Shown here: piece by piece, positions 17,343 through 40,179 of the stretch
Layout: every line of letters begins with the position of its first letter
Numbering within the stretch: position 1 is the first letter of the stretch
Made by a program: the position numbers and the translations under genes
NCBI RefSeq assembly: GCF_018860365.1
Contig: NZ_JAHKPO010000015.1
Span: 1-64,000, forward strand
Length of the DNA: 64,000 nucleotides
From: Arenibacter algicola
Lineage (GTDB): Bacteria > Bacteroidota > Bacteroidia > Flavobacteriales > Flavobacteriaceae
Direction of reading: 5' to 3'
Notes under the pieces: model-generated
What the model saw: the letters and a program-made list of their open reading frames with translations, nothing else
Databases searched by the model: none
Told to the model about the DNA's origin: nothing

Positions 17343-17519
17343 ACTCCCATCAAAATCTTTTAACACATTTATTGACCTTTCTATTTATTTTGGTGGAATT
17401 GGTCATTTTCCTGCATTATCAATAGTAAAACACCAGAAAAGACGCGATTTTTTCAGTTTTTGACCAAAACAAGTGTTAAAAGTTTTAACAAATCAACATA
17501 ATAATCTTTATGAATCACT

Positions 17520-17617
17520 ATACCCTTAAAATAAATGGGGCATTTTTATATAAAATGTAATTCTAACGCATATACCCCCTAAAAAATAGGGGGGTATGCA
17601 TTTAATATATATTTTTG
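17520..17617 (+). promoter_or_regulatory. P-II/amt promoter with two putative operators
   Basis: The -7 box is TATTTTTG at 17610-17617, followed by TCT. Upstream is a perfect inverted repeat ATACCCCC-N9-GGGGGGTAT at 17572-17597, and exactly 52 bp before it a degenerate copy, ATACCCTT-N9-GGGG, at 17520-17540. The proximal site begins 38 bp before the -7 box and covers the place where a -33 element should be, suggesting an activator or a repressor. The same two-site layout occurs before the type II glutamine synthetase at 39166. Confidence 0.75.
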
Positions 17618-17639
17618 TCTCATAAATAATAAATCAATT

Positions 17640-17978
17640 ATGAAAAAAATCGAGGCAATTATTAGGAAGTCAAAATTTGATGACGTAAAAAAAGCGTTAC
17701 ATCAAATTGGAGTAAACTTTTTTAGTTACTGGGACGTAACGGGAGTTGGAAATGAAAAAGAAGGTCATGTCTATAGAGGCATTTCCTATAGTACATCCGA
17801 CATTCAACGCAGGTATCTTTCCATTGTAATATCGGACGATTTCTTGGAGACTACCGTAAACACTATTCTGGAAACAGCGTATTCCGGCAACGTAGGTGAC
17901 GGTAAAATTTTCGTTTCCGAAGTTTTGGAAGCCTATCGCATCAGAACAAAAGAAAGCGGAAAAGCAGGAATTAACTAA
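17640..17978 (+). CDS. glnK: P-II nitrogen regulatory protein (GlnK type)
   Basis: A 112-residue P-II signal protein, a trimer that senses ATP/ADP and 2-oxoglutarate and controls ammonium uptake and assimilation. MKKIEAIIRKSK opens the fold, the T-loop runs from about 37 to 55 with VYRGISY, where Y50 is the likely equivalent of the uridylylated Tyr51, and GNVGDGKIFVSEV (about 82-95) is the nucleotide-binding B-loop. The T-loop is divergent after that Tyr (STSDIQRR). It sits 30 nt before an ammonium transporter, the classic glnK-amtB arrangement. No uridylyltransferase is in the window, so modification cannot be assumed. Confidence 0.95.
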   Translation: MKKIEAIIRKSKFDDVKKALHQIGVNFFSYWDVTGVGNEKEGHVYRGISYSTSDIQRRYLSIVISDDFLETTVNTILETAYSGNVGDGKIFVSEVLEAYRIRTKESGKAGIN

Positions 17979-18008: not shown

Positions 18009-19259
18009 ATGGACGTAGGATTATTTACAGCAAATAACGTTTGGATGATGATATGTACGGCTCTCGTATTCTTCATGCATTTAGGATTTTCACTTTTGGA
18101 AATCGGACTAACCAGACAAAAAAACACAATCAACATTTTATTTAAGAACGTATTCATCATTTGTATAGGATTACTCCTATATTATATAGGAGGATTTAAC
18201 CTTATGTATCCAGGTGATTTCAACGGCTATCTTGGTTTTGCAGGATTCGGCCTTGAAGCCCCCATACTCCCAGATGGTAGTTTGGACCTTACCTATAGTG
18301 AAGGATATACCTATTGGACAGACTTTCTTTTCCAAGCGATGTTTGCCGCAACAGCTGCTACCATTGTTTCTGGAGCAGTAGCAGAACGTATTAAACTAGG
18401 CGGATTCATGATATTCACCATAGTATATGTAGGTCTGGTATATCCAATTGTAGGATCTTGGCAATGGGGTGGCGGATTCCTTTCCACACTAGGTGGTGAA
18501 GATGGAGGTTTCCATGATTTCGCAGGATCTACCTTGGTACATTCCGTTGGAGGATGGGCAGCTTTAATTGCCATATATATATTAGGACCAAGAATTGGTA
18601 AATTTAACGAAGATGGCACACCAAATGCAATTCCAGGACACAACATTCCTTTGGCAGCAGCAGGGGTACTTATTCTTTGGTTAGGCTGGTTCGGCTTTAA
18701 TGGAGGATCGGTATTATCTGCAGATCCAGCTGGGACTTCAATAGTATTGGTTACAACTTGTTTGGCAGCAGCTGCAGGTGGTATAGGATCTTTTATTTTA
18801 TCTACAGTTCTTTACAAAAACTATGACCTTACCATGATGTTGAACGGTATCTTGGGCGGTTTGGTAGGAATTACAGCCGGAGCTGACTTAATGTCTCCTT
18901 TCGAGTCCATCCTTATAGGTCTAATTGCAGGTGCAGTTATTGTATTGGGTGTTGCCTTGGTGGACAAATTAAAACTGGACGATCCAGTTGGAGCAGTTGC
19001 AGTGCACCTTATCTGTGGTATCTGGGGTACTTTGGCAGTAGGAATCTTTGGAGTTAAAGCTGGTGTAACACAATTTTTATATCAGTTAACAGGAGTAGCT
19101 GCAGCTGGTGTTTTCTGCTGTGTTACTGCATTTATCATTCTTTTCGCAATCAAGAAAACTTCTGGTATCAGAGTTTCCAAAGAAGAAGAATTGGAAGGCT
19201 TGGATTTACATGAGCACGGAATGGATGCTTATGCCGACTTCAGAATGAACCAACACTAA
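18009..19259 (+). CDS. amt: Ammonium transporter
   Basis: A 416-residue Amt/MEP/Rh-family channel with about eleven transmembrane helices. Recognisable parts are FMHLGFSLLEIGLTRQKN, the motif DFAGSTLVHSVGGWAAL holding a pore histidine (about residue 178), GWFGFNGGS, the NGILGGLVGITAGADL block and the second pore region VGAVAVHLICGIWG. It moves ammonium into the cell and is blocked by the P-II protein encoded 30 nt upstream. The N-terminus starts directly with a hydrophobic helix, with no cleavable signal. A strong hairpin follows the stop. Confidence 0.96.
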   Translation: MDVGLFTANNVWMMICTALVFFMHLGFSLLEIGLTRQKNTINILFKNVFIICIGLLLYYIGGFNLMYPGDFNGYLGFAGFGLEAPILPDGSLDLTYSEGYTYWTDFLFQAMFAATAATIVSGAVAERIKLGGFMIFTIVYVGLVYPIVGSWQWGGGFLSTLGGEDGGFHDFAGSTLVHSVGGWAALIAIYILGPRIGKFNEDGTPNAIPGHNIPLAAAGVLILWLGWFGFNGGSVLSADPAGTSIVLVTTCLAAAAGGIGSFILSTVLYKNYDLTMMLNGILGGLVGITAGADLMSPFESILIGLIAGAVIVLGVALVDKLKLDDPVGAVAVHLICGIWGTLAVGIFGVKAGVTQFLYQLTGVAAAGVFCCVTAFIILFAIKKTSGIRVSKEEELEGLDLHEHGMDAYADFRMNQH

Positions 19260-19376: not shown

Positions 19377-20444
19377 ATGAAAACGATTATTTATACAAAA
19401 TACGTAAAAAATTTACTATTACTAGCATTTGCCCTTGCCTCAACAGTAACTTTCGCCCAAGAAGACGAAGAGGAAGCCAAGAAATTTAGCCTAAGCGGAA
19501 GTGTTGATGCCTACTACAGAACTAACTTAAATGGTGACAACGGTTTTGACGATACTTCTGGCCTACCTAATGCCGCTCCTGGATCTTCATTTGCCAACTT
19601 GCCTGGTTTTGCTTTAGGAATGGCCAATGTGATTGCCGCTTACGAAGGAGAAGATGTTGGGTTTGTAGCCGACCTTGTTTTTGGACCTAGAGGAACAGAT
19701 GCTATTTTTGCTTCTCCTTTATATTCAGCTACCGGAAACATTGTAAACCAATTGTATGTATACTGGAATTTAAGCGAATCGGTTAAATTGACATTCGGTA
19801 ACTTTAACACCTTCTTAGGTTACGAAGTAATATCCCCTGTTGCCAATTTTAACTACAGTACATCCTACTTGTTTTCTTACGGTCCTTTCTCCCACACTGG
19901 GTTGAAAGCAGACTTTGCCCTATCTGATGATTTTAGCTTAATGTTGGCGATCATGAACCCAACCGATCAAACTGAATTGAATCCTACAGAGAAATATGCT
20001 TTCGGTGCTCAATTGGGATATAGTGGTCAATTCCTAAACTTCCTTGCTGATGACGGGGCATTTGAAATTGACTTCACAGGTGGATTTGATTTATCAGAAT
20101 CATTCTTTTTAGGAGTCAATGCGGCCCTTTACGATAATGATGATATTGGTTTTGCCGGTGTAGCTCTTTATCCACAATACGCTACTTCTGATAACTTTAC
20201 CTTAGGATTAAGAGGTGAATATTTCACAGAAACAGGAGACTATGGCGCCATTGGAACTGGGGTTGAAGATTCCAGTGTTTTTGCAGTAACTCTTACAGGT
20301 AGCGCCACAATAGGCAATTTAATAATCAAGCCTGAGTTGCGATTGGATAGTGCATCAGATGATTCCTTTAATTTTCTAGATTCGGATTTGGCCCCACAAA
20401 AGAGCTTATCCTCATTTGTACTAGCAGCCGTTTACTCTTTCTAA
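19377..20444 (+). CDS. Outer-membrane beta-barrel porin (OmpL/Bbp2-like)
   Basis: A 355-residue protein with a signal peptide ending at TVTFAQ (about residue 28), an acidic stretch EDEEEAKK, then repeated amphipathic strands and a C-terminal aromatic residue (VLAAVYSF), all as in outer-membrane porins. The opening SLSGSVDAYYRTNL and the later KLTFGNFNTFLGYE, ...SPVANFNYSTSY resemble the Bbp2/OmpL family. It follows the amt gene but is separated by a terminator, so it may have its own promoter or be transcribed by read-through. A role in letting nitrogen compounds through the outer membrane is an inference from position only. Terminated by a strong hairpin. Confidence 0.85.
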   Translation: MKTIIYTKYVKNLLLLAFALASTVTFAQEDEEEAKKFSLSGSVDAYYRTNLNGDNGFDDTSGLPNAAPGSSFANLPGFALGMANVIAAYEGEDVGFVADLVFGPRGTDAIFASPLYSATGNIVNQLYVYWNLSESVKLTFGNFNTFLGYEVISPVANFNYSTSYLFSYGPFSHTGLKADFALSDDFSLMLAIMNPTDQTELNPTEKYAFGAQLGYSGQFLNFLADDGAFEIDFTGGFDLSESFFLGVNAALYDNDDIGFAGVALYPQYATSDNFTLGLRGEYFTETGDYGAIGTGVEDSSVFAVTLTGSATIGNLIIKPELRLDSASDDSFNFLDSDLAPQKSLSSFVLAAVYSF

Positions 20445-20495: not shown

Positions 20496-21137
20496 TCATT
20501 CCTTTTTAAACGCCTTCACCCCTGCTGTAATCTCAATATCGAGCCTATTCTGCTTGGGAACCAACGGACAGGAATATTTTGGATTGTAAGCACAGTATGG
20601 ATTATAGGCCTTATTAAAATCCAAAAGAATTGTATCTCCTGTGGGAATGGTCAAGTCTAAATATCTTCCCCCACCATAAGTTTCCTCCCCATTGGTAAGG
20701 TCCGCAAAGGGCAAAAACAAATAATCCCTGTATTTCTCCTGTTGCATCAATTCCTGATTTTGATAAACTTCCAATTTATGGGTACGTCCTTTTAGACTAA
20801 AAGTTATAATCCCAAAAACAACCTCCTCCGTCTGTCGTTCTGTAGTGGTCGGCATCATAAAAGGTAAGGCCTCGGGGGTCCGAGTGAATTTTGCGATAAT
20901 CCTATAGGTGGTATCCGGCTCATAAAAATCCAAAGTTGTAAAATCCTTTCTAAACCTATCCGGCAAGGGCGAGGTTTCAGGATCCTTGAATTCTTCATTC
21001 ATTTTTTTCTGAAATTGCACAATATCCTCCATGGCCCCGGACTCCAGTTCCACCGTATTCTTTTCCTCTTGATCATGGTACCTCTTTTCCTTACAGCTCA
21101 ATGACAATAAGAATAAAACCAAAAATAATTGCTTCAT
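20496..21137 (-). CDS. DUF1684-domain lipoprotein
   Basis: A 213-residue lipoprotein of the DUF1684 family. The N-terminus MKQLFLVLFLLSLSCKEK has a lipobox (LSLSC). The domain's hallmark is at the C-terminus: YLFLPFADLTNGEETYGGGRYLDL, DFNKAYNPYCAYNPKYSCPLVP and the ending ITAGVKAF; the longest pieces are described by their ends. The frame is open to 21167, but starting there puts ten extra residues before the signal, so I use the ATG at 21137. The conserved Cys/Tyr cluster suggests a binding or catalytic site, not yet characterised as far as I know. Confidence 0.88.
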   Translation of the reverse strand: MKQLFLVLFLLSLSCKEKRYHDQEEKNTVELESGAMEDIVQFQKKMNEEFKDPETSPLPDRFRKDFTTLDFYEPDTTYRIIAKFTRTPEALPFMMPTTTERQTEEVVFGIITFSLKGRTHKLEVYQNQELMQQEKYRDYLFLPFADLTNGEETYGGGRYLDLTIPTGDTILLDFNKAYNPYCAYNPKYSCPLVPKQNRLDIEITAGVKAFKKE

Positions 21138-21394
21138 TTTCCTACTTTTGGCATAAAAATACAACATCCATTTTTCTGAATAAAAGAATTTTGGATAGCA
21201 ACCCTACCTTAGGCCGGTTTATGAAGTAAATCCGAAACTATTAATGGAAGTTTTTTTGTAAAAAAGTTTAAATCTAAAAAATAGTTACCCTCGCCCTTGT
21301 CCGTTTCCCTGAAATCGGAACTAAATATGTGATGAGGAATGACACTAGGAATCAATAGCCTTCAACAAGCCATAATTACCCCTAGGACAGTTAC

Positions 21395-24074: not shown

Positions 24075-27000
24075 CTACATATTCCTCCTGTACTGACCCC
24101 CTACAGCAAACAACGCATCTGTAATTTGCCCCAAGGAACAGAACTTGGTAACCTCCATCAACTTTTCAAAAATATTCTCGTTTCTAACCGCTATTTCCTG
24201 TAACTCCTTTAATTGGGTATTGGCAGTCACCCCCATCATAGCATGTAAATTTTCCAAGGTACCTATTTGGGCCTGTTTTTCGGACTCTGTAGCACGTATA
24301 ACTTCTACTGGCAAAATTGTTGGCGAACCTTTGGAGCTCAGAAAGGTGTTTACTCCTATAATTGGAAATTCCCCGTTGTGCTTTAACGTCTCATAGTAAA
24401 GGCTCTCCTCCTGAATTTTGGATCTCTGATACATTGTTTCCATGGCTCCCAGTACACCCCCACGTTCTGTAATACGGTCAAACTCCAATAACACGGCTTC
24501 TTCCACAAGATCTGTCAACTCTTCAATTATAAAGGAACCCTGTAAGGGGTTTTCATTTTTTGTCAAGCCCAACTCTTTGTTTATGATCAATTGAATGGCC
24601 ATAGCTCTACGAACGGACTCCTCTGTTGGAGTGGTTATTGCCTCATCATAGGCATTGGTATGCAAAGAATTACAATTGTCATAGATAGCATATAGCGCCT
24701 GTAATGTAGTACGGATATCATTAAAATCTATTTCCTGGGCGTGTAAGCTTCGCCCAGAAGTTTGGATATGGTACTTTAACATCTGCGCCCGGGGATCAGC
24801 TCCATACTTAAGATGCATTGCCTTTGCCCATATGCGCCGCGCAACCCTTCCAATTACGGCATATTCCGGGTCTATCCCATTTGAAAAGAAAAAGGATAGG
24901 TTGGGACCAAATTTATTGATATCCATCCCCCTACTTAAATAATACTCCACATAGGTAAAACCGTTAGACAGCGTAAACGCCAATTGGGTAATGGGATTGG
25001 CCCCTGCCTCTGCAATGTGATACCCGGAAATGGAAACCGAATAAAAATTGCGTACTGAGTGCTGAATAAAATATTCCTGAACATCCCCCATTAGTCGGAG
25101 GGCAAATTCCGTTGAAAAAATGCAGGTATTTTGAGCCTGATCTTCTTTTAGGATATCTGCCTGCACCGTACCCCTTACCGTATTGAGAGTCTTCTTTTTA
25201 ATTTCGGCATATACACTTTTGGACAAGACCTGGTCTCCCGTAATACCCAATAGCATTAAGCCTAAACCGTTATTTCCTTCCGGTAACTCTCCCCTGTATT
25301 TTGGCCTAGGGACACCTTTTGACTCGTATAATGCAGCTATTTTCCCATCTACCTCATTTTCCAGCCCATTTTTTAAAATATATTTCTCACAATTCTGATC
25401 AATAGCGGCATTCATAAAATAACCCAACAACATGGGCGCAGGACCATTGATGGTCATACTAACAGAGGTAGTGGGGCTGCATAGATCAAATCCGGAATAC
25501 AATTTTTTGGCATCGTCCAAACAGCAGATGGAAACCCCTGCGTTGCCAATTTTTCCGTATATATCAGGCCTATAATCCGGATCCTGACCATACAGGGTTA
25601 CCGAATCGAATGCCGTGGATAAACGCTTGGCCGGCAATCCCAAACTAACATAATGAAAACGCCTGTTTGTACGTTCAGGGCCACCTTCCCCCGCAAACAT
25701 TCTTGTAGGATCTTCTTCTGTTCTCTTAAAAGGATAGAGTCCGGCTGTATAAGGAAATTCACCAGGTACATTTTCTTGGAGAATCCAACCCAAAATATCG
25801 CCCCATGCCCTGTATTTTGGAAGTGCCACTTTTGGAATATCGGTTTGGGCCAGTGATTTTGTATGAGTTTCCAATTTTAACTCTTTTCCCCTTACCTTAA
25901 AACTAAAGATTGGAGTTTTGTACTGTTGAACCTTTTTTTCCCAATTTAGGATCAGTTCCCAATTATGGGAATCCAGATCCATTTTTATCTCATCGAACTC
26001 TTTGAACAGGAGCAACAATAATTGTTTTTTATCCTCAGGTAGGGATAACTCTAAAATTGCTTCCGTATTTAACCCTTCTTTTAGGAGAAATTTATTAAAA
26101 TCTACCTTGGCATCCACCCTGCAAATAGCTTGTATAGTCTTAAAAATACCGTATAACTTTTGGGCCAACTCGGCTTGATGAAGCACCTTTTTATCATAGG
26201 CCCGATTGTTGTCGGCTATTTCGGACAGATAACGTGTACGCGAAGGAGGAATTATATAAACCTTCTCTTCATCGCCATTTCCTATTTGGAATTGGGAATT
26301 TAAGGCTGTTCCGGTTTTTGAAACCAATTTATCCATTACGGACTTATACAAACGATTCATGCCCGGGTCATTAAATTGTGAGGCTATTGTCCCAAAAATA
26401 GGTAGCTCATCCTGATCAGCCTCCCAAAGTCCATGATTGCGCACATATTGCTTTTTCACATCCCTTAAAGCGTCCAGAGCCCCTCTTTTATCGAACTTAT
26501 TAATAGCTACGATATCCGCAAAATCCAACATATCTATTTTTTCCAGCTGGGTGGCCGCCCCAAATTCGGGTGTCATAACATATAAGGAAACATCACTGTG
26601 TTCAATAATCTCGGTATCCGATTGGCCAATTCCCGAAGTTTCCAAAATAATCAAATGGAACCCTGCCACTTTTAGAACCTGAACTGCCTCGTCTACGTGT
26701 TTGGACAATGCCAAATTGGACTGCCTAGTAGCCAACGATCTCATATAGACCCGGGAATTGTTGATGGCGTTCATGCGTATCCGATCTCCCAACAAAGCAC
26801 CCCCCGTTTTCCTTTTGGATGGATCAACAGAAATTATCCCGATGGTTTTAGCTGGGAAATCCAATAGGAATCTTCTGACCAATTCATCTACCAAACTAGA
26901 TTTTCCAGCACCTCCCGTCCCCGTAATTCCAAGTACCGGCACGGTACTTTTCAATTCAGCCAAATCCGAAAAATCCTTTAGAAAATCCTCATGCCTATTT

Positions 27001-27533
27001 TCGGCCAAGGTAATCAGCCGCGCTATGGCATTTACATTCTTTTCTTTTAATAATTGGACCATTGACCGCCCCTCTGGAATTTCCAAAGAAGGAACGGGAA
27101 AATCACTTTGCCTAACCAAATCATTTATCATTCCCTGTAGCCCCATGGTCCTGCCATCATCCGGAGAATATATTCTGCTTATCCCATAATCCATTAATTC
27201 TTTTATCTCCGCAGGAAGAATTACCCCTCCACCACCTCCAAAAATCTTAATATGGTCCGCACCCCTATCCCGTAAAAGATCGTGCATATACTTAAAATAC
27301 TCCATGTGCCCTCCCTGGTATGAAGTAATGGCAATGGCATTTACATCTTCCTGTATGGCACAATCAACCACCTCGGACACACTACGATCGTGACCCAAAT
27401 GAATTACCTCCACACCGGTAGACTGAATAATACGCCTCATCATATTAATCGCCGCATCGTGACCATCAAACAAGGATGCTGCCGTAACTATACGAACTTT
27501 ATTTTTAGGAATATATGGTGGCTTCTGCTTCAT
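24075..27533 (-). CDS. icmF: Fused isobutyryl-CoA mutase IcmF (B12 domain + G-protein chaperone + mutase)
   Basis: This 1152-residue protein fuses the three parts of an adenosylcobalamin mutase system. Residues about 12-140 bind cobalamin (the DGHD motif at 23-26 contains the cobalt-ligating histidine). Residues about 198-420 are a MeaB-like GTPase chaperone with Walker [10 protein letters not shown] at 206-214 and NKFDK at 346-350. Residues from about 570 to the end form the acyl-CoA mutase TIM barrel, with [50 protein letters not shown] and the C-terminal helical region. The domain order and the [22 protein letters not shown] block, mentioned only by part, match IcmF, which interconverts isobutyryl-CoA and n-butyryl-CoA. 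Some family members also act on isovaleryl- or pivalyl-CoA. It is monocistronic, and no mutase partner gene is nearby. Confidence 0.95.
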
Positions 27534-36781: not shown

Positions 36782-38968
36782 TTATTTAATGAACAATAGT
36801 TCCCTATATTTGGTTAGAGGCCAATATTCGTCGCCTACCAATTGCTCCAGTTTATCGCAATGGTACCTTATTTCATCAAAATAAGGCCTCACATTATCGC
36901 AATAAGCAATGGCCTTTTTATTGATGTCGGTCATATTATTGGCTATCTTTCTTTCGTCTACCATAGCATCGGTCTTAATTTTGATGGCACGAATATGCTC
37001 GGAAATTCGCTCAACAACATCCAACTGACTTTCTGACATTTTTTTGTGGGCGGCACCATAAATTTCTTTTAGACCTATCACATTTTTTATCAATTTATTC
37101 TGATATTCCACTGCAGCAGGAATAATATATGCATAAGCCAACTCATTAAAGACCCTACCTTCTATTTGAATATGCAGGATATACTCTTCCAATTCCACCT
37201 CTTGTCTAACCCTAACCTCAATTTCGCTCATGACATTCATGGACTTGAACAGCGCCAAACTTTCTTTTGAGGTAAGTATCTGCAGGGCCTTGGGGGTATT
37301 TTTGTTATTGCTCAAGCCTCGGGATTTGGCCTCATTTTCCCATGCTTCACTGTAACCATCGCCCTCGAACCTAATTCTTTTGGAAGTTTTTATATATTCC
37401 CTAAGGACATTAAAGATAGCCTCATCCTTTTTAAGACCTTTTTTATCCACCAGTTGATCTACCTCCTTTTTAAAAGCCATAAGTTGCTTGGCAACAATGG
37501 TATTTAATATCGTCATAGGTTTGGCACAATTGGATTTGGAGCCTACGCCCCTCATCTCGAACTTGTTTCCTGTAAATGCAAAAGGGGAGGTACGATTGCG
37601 ATCGGTATTGTCCAGAAGAATTTCTGGAATCTTACCTACCACGTTCAACTTTAATTCCGTCTTTTCCTCAGGCGACAACTTCCCTTTGGTCACTCCTTCC
37701 AATTCATTTAAGACCTCATTCAGCTGTTCCCCTATAAAAATGGACAAGATAGCTGGAGGTGCCTCATTGGCCCCCAATCTATGGTCGTTTCCTGCAGAAG
37801 CAATGGAAGAACGCAATAATTCCTCATAATTATCCACCGCCTTTATAGTGTTCACGAAAAAAGTTAAAAACTGGAGATTTTTCATGGGAGTAGAACCAGG
37901 ACTAAGCAGATTAACACCGGTATCCGTGGACAAAGACCAATTGTTGTGCTTACCAGACCCATTTATACCCCTAAAAGGCTTTTCATGAAAGAGTACTTTA
38001 AAAAAATGCTTATCAGCAATCTTTTCCATGACATCCATGAGCAATAGATTGTGATCTACGGCCAGATTGGTTTCTTCAAAGATAGGAGCCAACTCAAATT
38101 GATTGGGAGCTACTTCATTATGTCTGGTTTTTACGGGAATCCCCAGTTTAGTACATTCCCTTTCCAAATCTTTCATGAAATTCAATACGCGATTTGGAAT
38201 AACTCCAAAGTAGTGATCGTCCAACTGTTGGCCTTTTGCCGCGGAATGGCCTACTAACGTACGGCCTGCCAAACTAATATCTGGTCGGGAAAAAGCCAAT
38301 GACTTGTCTATTAAGAAATACTCCTGTTCCCAGCCTAAGGTGGCGTATACTTTGGTTACATTTTTATCAAAGAATTTAGCTACTGCAGTCGCGGCTTCAT
38401 CCATGGCATTCAATGCCCTTAAAAGTGGAGCCTTATTGTCCAAGGCCTCCCCGGTATAGGCTACAAAAACGGTTGGTATACATAGGGTGGTGCCATAAAG
38501 AAATGCCGGAGACGTTGGATCCCAGGCCGTGTAGCCCCTGGCCTCAAAAGTATTACGTATCCCCCCGTTTGGAAAACTGGAGGCGTCCGACTCTTGCTGC
38601 ACCAACTGGCCACCACCGAACTTTTCCATCACTCTTCCTTCTGGCGAAAAATCAAAAAAAGCATCATGTTTCTCGGCTGTGGTTCCTGTAAGCGGTTGAA
38701 ACCAATGGGTGTAATGTGTTGCACCCATGGATATTGCCCAGGTCTTCATCCCTTCCGCTACTTGATCGGCAACTTTTCTGTCTATTTTAGCACCGGACAC
38801 GACGGCTGCCTTTACCCTGTCATAAGCATCCTTGGTCAAGTATTGTAACATACGTTCCTCATTGAACACATTCATCCCAAAATATTCCGAACGTCTGCCG
38901 GTTTCCTCCACATCTATTTCAGTTCTGGCATGACTGCTTGCTATGGCCTTAAATCTTTGATTTGACAT
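36782..38968 (-). CDS. glnN: Type III glutamine synthetase
   Basis: A 728-residue GSIII, which makes glutamine from glutamate, ammonia and ATP; GSIII forms large double-ring dodecamers and is typical of Bacteroidota and some cyanobacteria. Features seen include THWFQPLTGTTAEKHDAFF, the glutamate/metal-binding YATLGWEQEYFLIDK, NRVLNFMKDLE, VKTRHNEVAPNQFELAPIFEETN, INGSGKHNNWSLSTDTG and DNTDRNRTSPFAFTGNKFEMR. The open frame reaches 39085 but the added residues are non-conserved and hydrophobic, and the -7 box lies inside them; the ATG at 38968 gives the normal length. It is divergent from a type II enzyme. Confidence 0.97.
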   Translation of the reverse strand: MSNQRFKAIASSHARTEIDVEETGRRSEYFGMNVFNEERMLQYLTKDAYDRVKAAVVSGAKIDRKVADQVAEGMKTWAISMGATHYTHWFQPLTGTTAEKHDAFFDFSPEGRVMEKFGGGQLVQQESDASSFPNGGIRNTFEARGYTAWDPTSPAFLYGTTLCIPTVFVAYTGEALDNKAPLLRALNAMDEAATAVAKFFDKNVTKVYATLGWEQEYFLIDKSLAFSRPDISLAGRTLVGHSAAKGQQLDDHYFGVIPNRVLNFMKDLERECTKLGIPVKTRHNEVAPNQFELAPIFEETNLAVDHNLLLMDVMEKIADKHFFKVLFHEKPFRGINGSGKHNNWSLSTDTGVNLLSPGSTPMKNLQFLTFFVNTIKAVDNYEELLRSSIASAGNDHRLGANEAPPAILSIFIGEQLNEVLNELEGVTKGKLSPEEKTELKLNVVGKIPEILLDNTDRNRTSPFAFTGNKFEMRGVGSKSNCAKPMTILNTIVAKQLMAFKKEVDQLVDKKGLKKDEAIFNVLREYIKTSKRIRFEGDGYSEAWENEAKSRGLSNNKNTPKALQILTSKESLALFKSMNVMSEIEVRVRQEVELEEYILHIQIEGRVFNELAYAYIIPAAVEYQNKLIKNVIGLKEIYGAAHKKMSESQLDVVERISEHIRAIKIKTDAMVDERKIANNMTDINKKAIAYCDNVRPYFDEIRYHCDKLEQLVGDEYWPLTKYRELLFIK

Positions 38969-38983
38969 AAATACATTTTTTGA

Positions 38984-38991
38984 CAAAAATA
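38984..38991 (-). promoter_or_regulatory. -7 element of glnN
   Basis: Minus-strand TATTTTTG followed by TC, the same -7 sequence as the P-II and type II synthetase promoters. It ends 15 nt before the ATG. The shared inverted repeat at 39035-39056 is centred about 56 bp upstream of it. Confidence 0.65.
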
Positions 38992-39034
38992 ACAATTCAT
39001 TAAAATAATCTACATAAAATACATATTTAATAAT

Positions 39035-39131
39035 ATACCCCCAAAAAAATAGGGGTCTCCGAAAAAATATCAACATTATAATCATTTAACCCACTAAAAA
39101 ATGGCATATGTGTTGAAAATTATTATTTTTG
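39035..39131 (+). promoter_or_regulatory. Type II glutamine synthetase promoter with two putative operators
   Basis: An inverted repeat ATACCCCC-N9-GGGGT is at 39035-39056 with the same arm and spacer length as at 17572. Exactly 52 bp downstream a weak copy (TAACCCAC, TAAAAAAT spacer, GG) is at 39087-39104. The -7 box TATTTTTG at 39124-39131 follows 37 bp after the weak copy begins. Because the region is shared with glnN, the strong site could serve both directions. Confidence 0.72.
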
Positions 39132-39165
39132 TCTGCGTTAATAATAAAAATCAACAATACATATT

Positions 39166-40179
39166 ATGAGCAAGTCTAAATTAGAATACATTTGGTTGGA
39201 TGGGTACGAGCCCACACAAAACATGAGGAGTAAAACTAAGGTTGAGGAAAATTTCAGCGGTAAACTGGAAGATTGCCCAATATGGTCCTTTGATGGAAGT
39301 TCAACCCGACAGGCTGAAGGAGGATCTTCTGACTGTGTGTTAAAGCCAGTAGCCATTTATCCTGATCCACATCGCATCAACGGCTATTTAGTAATGACAG
39401 AAGTTATGAATGCCGATGGTACTCCCCACGTATCCAATGGTAGAGCCACAATCGAAGATGAAGACAATGATTTCTGGTTTGGATTTGAGCAAGAATATTT
39501 CATAATGGATACAAGAACAGAACTTCCTTTAGGTTTTCCTAGAGGCGGGTATCCAAAACCACAAGGTATGTACTACTGTTCTGTTGGTGGTCTAAATACT
39601 CATGGGCGTGACTTGGTAGAAGAGCATGCAGATGCCTGTATCGCTGCCGGTTTAAACTTTGAAGGAATTAACCAAGAAGTTGCCTGTGGACAGTGGGAAT
39701 TTCAATTATTCGCCAAAGGTGCCAAAAAAGCAGGTGATGAAATTTGGGTTGCAAGATATCTATTGGATAGATTAACCGAAAAACATGGTTACTATATAGA
39801 ATACCACCCGAAACCTCTAGGTGATACCGATTGGAACGGTTCTGGTATGCACGCCAACTTCTCCAACACTACTTTGAGAACTTGTGGTTCAAAGGAAGTC
39901 TACGAAAAAATATGTGAAGCCTTCCGTCCAGTTGTAAAAGAGCACATTGCCGTTTACGGTGAGTTCAACGATCAACGTTTGACAGGAAAACACGAAACTG
40001 CTTCTATTAATGACTTTAGCTATGGTATTTCCGATAGAGGTGCCTCTATTAGAATCCCTATCATTACAGTACAAAAAGGCTGGAAAGGTTGGTTGGAAGA
40101 TAGAAGACCAGCTTCCAATGGTGATCCATACAAAATAGCAGGAAGAATTGTTAAAACGGTTAAATCCGTTAAAATATAA
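39166..40179 (+). CDS. glnII: Glutamine synthetase, eukaryote-like type II (GSII)
   Basis: A 337-residue GS of the short type II kind best known from eukaryotes, Rhizobium and actinomycetes. It forms decamers and makes glutamine from glutamate and ammonium. The N-terminal beta-grasp has YIWLDGYEPTQNMRSKTK and PIWSFDGSSTRQAEG; the catalytic domain has WFGFEQEYFIMD (metal glutamates), GINQEVACGQWEFQ, DWNGSGMHANFS (ammonium/glutamate site), RLTGKHETASINDFSYG and GASIRIPI. Its promoter carries the same two-site motif as the P-II operon, so both are probably under nitrogen control. No adenylylation loop is expected in this type. Confidence 0.96.
   Translation: MSKSKLEYIWLDGYEPTQNMRSKTKVEENFSGKLEDCPIWSFDGSSTRQAEGGSSDCVLKPVAIYPDPHRINGYLVMTEVMNADGTPHVSNGRATIEDEDNDFWFGFEQEYFIMDTRTELPLGFPRGGYPKPQGMYYCSVGGLNTHGRDLVEEHADACIAAGLNFEGINQEVACGQWEFQLFAKGAKKAGDEIWVARYLLDRLTEKHGYYIEYHPKPLGDTDWNGSGMHANFSNTTLRTCGSKEVYEKICEAFRPVVKEHIAVYGEFNDQRLTGKHETASINDFSYGISDRGASIRIPIITVQKGWKGWLEDRRPASNGDPYKIAGRIVKTVKSVKI

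Follow-up and report, generated by a model that had tools for sequence, protein, structure and literature searches.

A conserved two-site module before PII, ammonium transporter and glutamine synthetase genes: a candidate nitrogen operator of Flavobacteriales

Several bacterial groups control nitrogen assimilation through dedicated regulators. In cyanobacteria, NtcA, a member of the Crp family, binds the operator GTA-N8-TAC. In Bacilli, GlnR and TnrA belong to the MerR family and recognize the box TGTNAN7TNACA, while AmtR of Corynebacterium is a TetR-type regulator. At tandem Crp promoters, an activator dimer sits over the upstream promoter element and is assisted by another dimer bound five helical turns farther upstream. 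Flavobacteriales rank among the main degraders of algal material in the sea. Because they grow on polysaccharides poor in nitrogen, control of this element should be central to them. Among the open-access papers listed in our searches, judged by titles and the start of abstracts, none describes a flavobacterial nitrogen operator or regulator. The passages on nitrogen and glutamine in the Flavobacterium psychrophilum transcriptome paper (PMC9723704) mention no nitrogen regulator or operator, and the word ammonium does not occur in its main text, supplements aside.

We analyzed a 64,000-nucleotide stretch of Arenibacter algicola DNA (the window). A first-pass annotation of this sequence had described a two-site operator at the PII/amt promoter that is repeated at a glutamine synthetase promoter, and each of its sequence observations was reproduced in the window. 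The pattern ATACCCCC-N9-GGGG occurs exactly at 17572 and 39035 and nowhere else in the window. The weaker copies start at 17520 and 39087, in both cases 52 bp away from the strong copy, and the -7 element TATTTTTG starts at 17610 and 39124, which is 38 and 37 bp, respectively, after the start of the proximal site. At PII/amt the strong copy is the proximal one, whereas at the type II synthetase (GSII) it is the distal one. The features are as follows.

17520..17544, no strand: distal (weak) operator of the PII/amt promoter (motif match and match to the sequence-only model R3, described below; kept in relatives)
17572..17597, no strand: proximal (strong) operator of the PII/amt promoter, ATACCCCC-TAAAAAATA-GGGGGGTAT, centre at about -39
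17610..17617, plus strand: -7 element TATTTTTG of the PII/amt promoter (sequence match)
17640..17978, plus strand: PII signalling protein of the glnB/glnK family (Pfam PF00543, 3.6e-22)
18009..19259, plus strand: ammonium transporter Amt (PF00909, 6.8e-117; TIGR00836 above cut-off)
19377..20444, plus strand, as PII/amt: putative porin (BBP2; PF07642, 3.7e-64)
36782..38968, minus strand: glutamine synthetase type III (GSIII), 728 aa (PF12437, 3.7e-76)
38984..38991, minus strand: -7 element TATTTTTG facing GSIII, the second TATTTTTG of the region
39035..39058, no strand: strong operator between the synthetase genes, at about -90 (distal) relative to GSII and at about -67 (nearer) relative to GSIII
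39087..39111, no strand: weak operator, proximal for GSII (about -38; motif match, relatives)
39124..39131, plus strand: -7 element TATTTTTG of the GSII promoter (sequence match)
39166..40179, plus strand: glutamine synthetase type II, 337 aa (PF00120 and PF03951)

The PII/amt transcription start is predicted near 17622, because the flavobacterial element TAnnTTTG occupies -12 to -5 (PMC9723704, PMC6847099). From the same register, the proximal centre should lie at about -39 (-38 to -40) and the distal centre at about -91. The corresponding starts are predicted near 39136 for GSII and near 38979 for GSIII. In the 17520 operator the CCC-N11-GGG core spans 17523-17539, and its centre is at about -91 relative to the predicted start. 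The 39087 operator is without this core and retains the left half alone; among relatives, the upstream half (ACCC) is likewise the best-kept part of the GSII proximal site. The synthetase operators stand between the divergent GSIII and GSII genes, so that the strong 39035 copy is nearer to GSIII. The first-pass annotation had not noted the divergent gene, which accounts for the reversed order of strong and weak copies at GSII. The GSIII open frame extends to 39085, and its likely start is 38968, since homologues have about 728 aa. In most species of the genus, a TAnnTTT lies 67-68 bp from the strong operator on the GSIII side, and the strong site is about 67 bp from the predicted GSIII start, three turns farther than at GSII. 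The best NCBIfam match of GSII was GlnII (NF041605, 2.3e-112), which was under the cut-off of that model. The porin homologue is the first gene of a module-controlled operon in some relatives. Between the two promoters, at 24075-27533 on the minus strand, the window also encodes a 1152-aa protein in which B12-binding, MeaB-type GTPase and methylmalonyl-CoA-type mutase parts are fused.

We then compared the two promoter regions with the sites of described nitrogen regulators. GTA-N8-TAC had no exact match in either region; the best near-matches (2 and 1 mismatches of 6) were at 17425 and 39000 on the plus strand, away from the repeats. The sigma-54 consensus TGGCAC-N5-TTGCW was matched at best with 3 of 11 mismatches at PII/amt and 2 of 11 at the synthetases. 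For the NtrC consensus TGCACCA-N3-TGGTGCA, no match in either region had fewer than 6 mismatches out of 14. The GlnR/TnrA box TGTNAN7TNACA was absent from all four operators and had one exact match elsewhere, at 17474. This match is a perfect inverted repeat, TGTTA-AAAGTTT-TAACA, at 17474-17490, 5' of the distal PII/amt operator. The repeat is retained in part of the genus, L006-L008 and L011 reading TGTTAATTATATTAACA, and no repeat of this type was seen in the PII upstream regions examined from more distant relatives.

Statistical support was assessed with three models. A single pattern with up to two mismatches had 8 matches in the window against a shuffled mean of 5.3, and 17 of 100 shuffles reached 8, which is not significant. 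R3, a sequence-only model built from 17 modules that come from other genera as far as their labels tell, was run on the 64-kb window with filters off and recovered both modules, at E values of 2.6e-14 (17520-17618) and 3.8e-10 (39034-39132); its best match away from them had an E value of 0.0052. Thus the pair with its -7 element exceeds chance, whereas the single loose repeat does not. R3 was also run on 56 further loci. For other species of the genus, 16 of 17 PII loci matched at 3.3e-14 to 2.5e-9, the remaining locus (L019) giving 4.2e-4 and 1.3e-3, and 16 of 17 GSII loci matched at 8.9e-7 or better, with 3.1e-4 for L040. The host gltB locus (L118) matched at 5.1e-5, and nothing below 0.1 was found in 21 control loci around host regulator genes.

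The host genome (5.75 Mb, 31 contigs) was searched with the other two models. R1, a single-site model whose own rows include three window sites, ranked these same three sites first to third (E values of 3.0e-4, 6.3e-4 and 0.051), and the 39087 copy was absent from its host-genome matches. Across 24 host loci, single-site matches fell inside genes or before genes that were not recognized as nitrogen genes, with the exception of the window sites and a third gltB site. One weak single-site match (L114, G000 C4:147010, E value of 3.1) was located 3 bp before an open reading frame that appears AraC-like by eye. R2, a two-site model, was trained on PII and GSII promoters alone, the window's own modules being among its rows. 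At E<1e-5 it listed only three host modules, those of PII/amt, GSII/GSIII and gltB, under strict filters that lose weak matches. This result agreed with the expectation that the motif is not common away from nitrogen genes, and the gltB module is outside the R2 training set. In the host gltB region (about 4800-4940 of L118, G000 C14), three operator-like sites follow one another at intervals of about 53 bp, as judged by eye; they lie some 170-300 bp before the start codon, with no -7 element in the usual register. The host gltB promoter does not fit the PII/GSII register.

To follow the module in relatives, we sought PII in 60 genomes, found a match in 33 and read 30 loci. The pair stood directly before PII in 24 of the 30. 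In five of the other six (G023, G025, G031, G034 and G036), a module preceded a porin gene that opens the same operon, and in G019 the contig breaks off about 90 bp before PII, too close to the gene for a judgement. For GSII, the pair was present in 27 of 30 loci read, and no pair was visible in G043, G050 and G056. The module is therefore conserved before orthologous genes, as the first-pass annotation had anticipated, with a second site that is sometimes weak (matrix scores of 0.6 for the GSII locus L050 and 4.7 for the PII locus L027). A matrix was trained on the sites of 51 promoters, once the nine loci in which no sites could be seen had been removed by visual inspection. The two best sites were 50-54 bp apart in all 51, although the scan imposed no spacing. 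Among 61 modules in a scan that admitted 49-56 bp, with a few loci counted in both orientations, spacings of 52 bp (22 modules) and 53 bp (19) were followed by 51 (9), 54 (7), 55 (3) and 50 bp (1). The 52-bp distance claimed earlier is thus exact in the window and the commonest in relatives, where it is not fixed but ranges over 50-55 bp.

R2 had a match at E<=0.01 in 54 of the 60 relatives and at E<=5e-4 in 22 of 198 genomes of the phylum. Of these 22, 18 belong to the same family, for which 19 genomes were listed, one belongs to the same order and three lie outside the order; the last three matched at 2.3e-4 to 2.6e-4 with no nitrogen gene nearby. A strict matrix scan of 43 PII loci, most of them flavobacterial, recovered modules in 16; L331 and L344 in this set may not be Flavobacteriales. 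Some of the 27 misses arose because the module precedes the porin or falls under the threshold. No PII locus reached this threshold among 37 from groups outside the order, and the mirrored matrix had no match in 80 PII loci.

We then identified the genes behind the module. For this purpose, 74 R2 loci were chosen from the match lists, leaving aside most of the PII and GSII loci already known from the first 60 genomes, and a locus was called nitrogen-linked when a nitrogen-linked gene started within 600 bp downstream. Gene names were assigned by Pfam and NCBIfam for representatives and by BLAST for the others, and urtA and urease were assigned by eye. Overall, 57 of 74 loci were nitrogen-linked: 28 of 30 at E<1e-5 and 38 of 41 at E<1e-4, compared with 19 of 33 above this value (1e-4 to 2e-3). 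By interval, the counts were 13/14 below 1e-8, 9/10 to 1e-6, 6/6 to 1e-5, 10/11 to 1e-4, 7/13 to 3e-4 and 12/20 to 2e-3. Five of the 28 linked loci with E<1e-5 were PII or GSII promoters from genomes outside the training set. For two of the 57 (L263 and L270) the link depends on nothing but the porin homologue, and urtA was queried with the sequence of that locus itself.

In Flavobacteriales, the nitrogen genes preceded by the module were gltB, alanine dehydrogenase, urtA, both synthetases (GSII and GSIII) and amt, the last either alone or within a porin-amt-PII operon. GSIII modules also occurred in genomes without GSII, and alanine dehydrogenase modules were found in five genomes. The comparison with gltB and urea genes that the first-pass annotation had proposed yielded gltB modules in the host and its relatives and a urea transporter module once, before urtA in G211, beside urease genes. 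The two non-nitrogen matches at E<1e-5 (G052 and G037, one genus) both preceded a related outer-membrane protein gene. This gene, behind the strong R2 matches of L138 and L143, is a possible further regulon member. In L142, L147 and L150, which represent three genera, a BlaI/BlaR-like pair (by eye) adjoins a calcium/sodium antiporter gene and GSIII; as a candidate regulator it has nothing but this proximity in its favour.

The anatomy of the operator was analyzed in 40 non-redundant sites scoring at least 18. A CCC-N11-GGG core was present in 36 of them, with N10 readable in 30 and N12 in 28, as CCC or GGG runs longer than three permit several spacer readings. The spacer of the core is A/T-rich and its sequence varies while CCC and GGG persist. 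In 49 of the 51 promoters, TAnnTTT began 36-39 bp past the proximal site, in a scan that left its position unrestricted, and it was present in 59 of 61 modules when the scan admitted 33-39 bp only. In addition, 18 of the 61 modules have the A-rich element (C/G)ATAAAAAT, always 15-17 bp upstream of the proximal site, against a mean of 0.33 and a maximum of 3 in single-letter shuffles of the spacers, which do not keep dinucleotides. The element was absent from the other 43 modules and from both window modules.

These results support the proposal that the pair is a nitrogen control site of an uncharacterized flavobacterial regulator, a reading drawn from sequence comparison, and we infer that the site responds to nitrogen and is bound by dimers. 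The modules are probably the operators of a nitrogen-assimilation regulon of Flavobacteriales with the layout of a two-dimer activator. In this proposal, one dimer of a single regulator would bind each repeat. The proximal dimer, centred at about -39, would cover the position of the -33 promoter element and touch RNA polymerase, and the distal dimer at about -91, five helical turns away on the same DNA face, would add to the effect of the proximal one. Where it is present, (C/G)ATAAAAAT occupies about -66 to -58 and may serve as a docking place for the alpha subunit of the polymerase. One pair between the divergent synthetases could serve GSII from -38/-90 and GSIII from about -67. Since the layout is that of an activator, nitrogen shortage would be expected to turn these genes on.

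The sign of control is judged from the position of the sites alone, which makes activation likely and repression a good deal less so. A repressor acting on the same regulon is the alternative that survives best, although we regard it as improbable. In that case, dimers on both repeats would shut the promoter when glutamine is plentiful, and the 52-bp distance would reflect cooperative binding or a small loop. The proximal repeat lies over the -33 region, where a bound protein could block the polymerase, and two-site repression through loops is well known. GlnR of Gram-positive bacteria, moreover, is described as a repressor (PMC9249791). On the other hand, activator promoters such as those with tandem Crp sites show this layout, in which one site is centred at -39, a second lies at about -91 and an A-rich element stands in between, and the strong site of GSIII, at about -67, is too far upstream for a direct block.

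Which protein might bind the activator-like pairs was approached by comparing six regulator families (Lrp, Rrf2, TetR, Crp, MerR and XRE) with the presence of the module, on the assumption that one regulator serves the whole order. None of the six followed the distribution of the module cleanly. Three of them remained as candidates, each unlikely on its own. A Crp/Fnr-family regulator, as a flavobacterial counterpart of NtcA, is the least unlikely of these. The layout resembles class II and tandem Crp promoters, and both G044 and G057, whose repeats before GSIII are near-perfect, encode a single Crp-type protein. However, G045 (92% complete) has no Crp match above the cut-off and yet has two sites 53 bp apart before GSIII (L275). 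In Crp/Fnr proteins, a recognition helix of the E-xxx-R type reads TGA or TTGA half-sites and not CCC; by eye, 13 of the 24 proteins read, including those of G044 and G057, have such a helix. The odd-length CCC-N11-GGG also differs from the even symmetry of Crp-type sites. A protein of about 350 aa in L167 (G024) appears by eye to fuse a response-regulator receiver domain to a Crp-type DNA-binding protein, and two Crp-type matches of the host genome, C27:54275 and C27:35041, have an open-frame length similar to it.

A MerR-type regulator that works like GlnR/TnrA is somewhat more doubtful. CCC-N11-GGG shares the 17-bp geometry of the box TGT-N11-ACA, but the letters of the half-sites differ. 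A MerR match was found in all 31 Flavobacteriales tested, in open frames of 109-174 aa, those read being mostly near 110 aa. Because the same protein also turns up in module-less genomes and in other classes, finding it is hardly informative. An XRE-type regulator of about 250-280 aa, with a second part that is S24-type by eye, is the least probable of the three. HTH_3 in frames of 246-281 aa was found in nine of nine module-bearing genomes versus one of seven module-less genomes (one-sided Fisher, 0.0009), and in G044 and G057 one XRE gene lies near the GSIII module with one gene between. Against this, the proteins do not form one orthologous group, the host and G045 members being different; the module-less genomes are mostly small, so that many regulators would look absent from them; and with six families tried, one match of this kind is less surprising.

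The other three families were rejected. Lrp/AsnC was tempting because Lrp genes lie near the alanine dehydrogenase modules of G028 and G031, but it was dismissed because no PF01037 match was found in G042 (99% complete) or G045 (92%). G042 has an R2 match at 6.8e-5 with one clear repeat before GSIII, and G045 has two clear repeats. The type-2 site of IscR, CC-xx-YA, resembles the CCC-type operator; no Rrf2/IscR match above the cut-off was found in five module-bearing genomes (G026, G044, G045, G055 and G057). For TetR (AmtR-like), no orthologue was common to the module-bearing genomes tested, G045 and G055 having one protein each from different groups, in a comparison where 3 of 39 loci yielded no open reading frame. 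Between PII and the synthetases, no DNA-binding family of Pfam was matched by the open reading frames scanned, which were 12 of those present and 20496-21167; 2 of the 12 matched no family at all. In the loci read, where part of the genes were identified, no regulator gene was seen immediately following a two-site module, as autoregulation might place it.

Finally, a non-operator explanation, in which a conserved promoter stretch or DNA-shape element looks alike through common descent, fits the flanks that species of one genus largely share, but it is very hard to reconcile with a module common to the non-homologous promoters of gltB, ald, urtA, amt and GSIII in different genera, or with spacers that differ while CCC and GGG stay constant.

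The preferred reading is thus the activator pair of a Flavobacteriales nitrogen regulon, which would be a global regulon of a known kind with an operator of its own that appears to be new. More tentatively, and with slightly less than an even chance, Flavobacteriales may have a global nitrogen-control system of their own: an undescribed regulator from a family new to this role would activate from CCC-N11-GGG pairs at -39/-91 with an alpha docking element between them, through the unusual flavobacterial primary sigma factor, and would serve two synthetases through one site. A defined operator and a common gene list make the regulator accessible to DNA-based protein capture.

Compared with the described systems, the module would share with NtcA the global control of amt, glnA and PII and an operator near -40 that replaces the upstream promoter element, but the operator here is CCC-N11-GGG and two copies stand about 52 bp apart. 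GlnR/TnrA likewise control glnA, amt, glnK, gltB and urea genes through a 17-bp inverted repeat, often as two boxes; the spacing of 11 agrees, whereas the half-sites of the window are CCC and GGG. NtrC and sigma-54 of Proteobacteria use helically phased paired sites before glnA and glnK-amtB, while the promoters described here bear the -7 element TATTTTTG of the flavobacterial primary sigma factor. AmtR controls amt, glnK and gltBD, with a different operator. Tandem Crp promoters of E. coli differ in operator and sigma factor, but they have the arrangement proposed here: their two dimers bind near -41 and -92, a distance of about 52 bp, and the alpha subunit docks between them.
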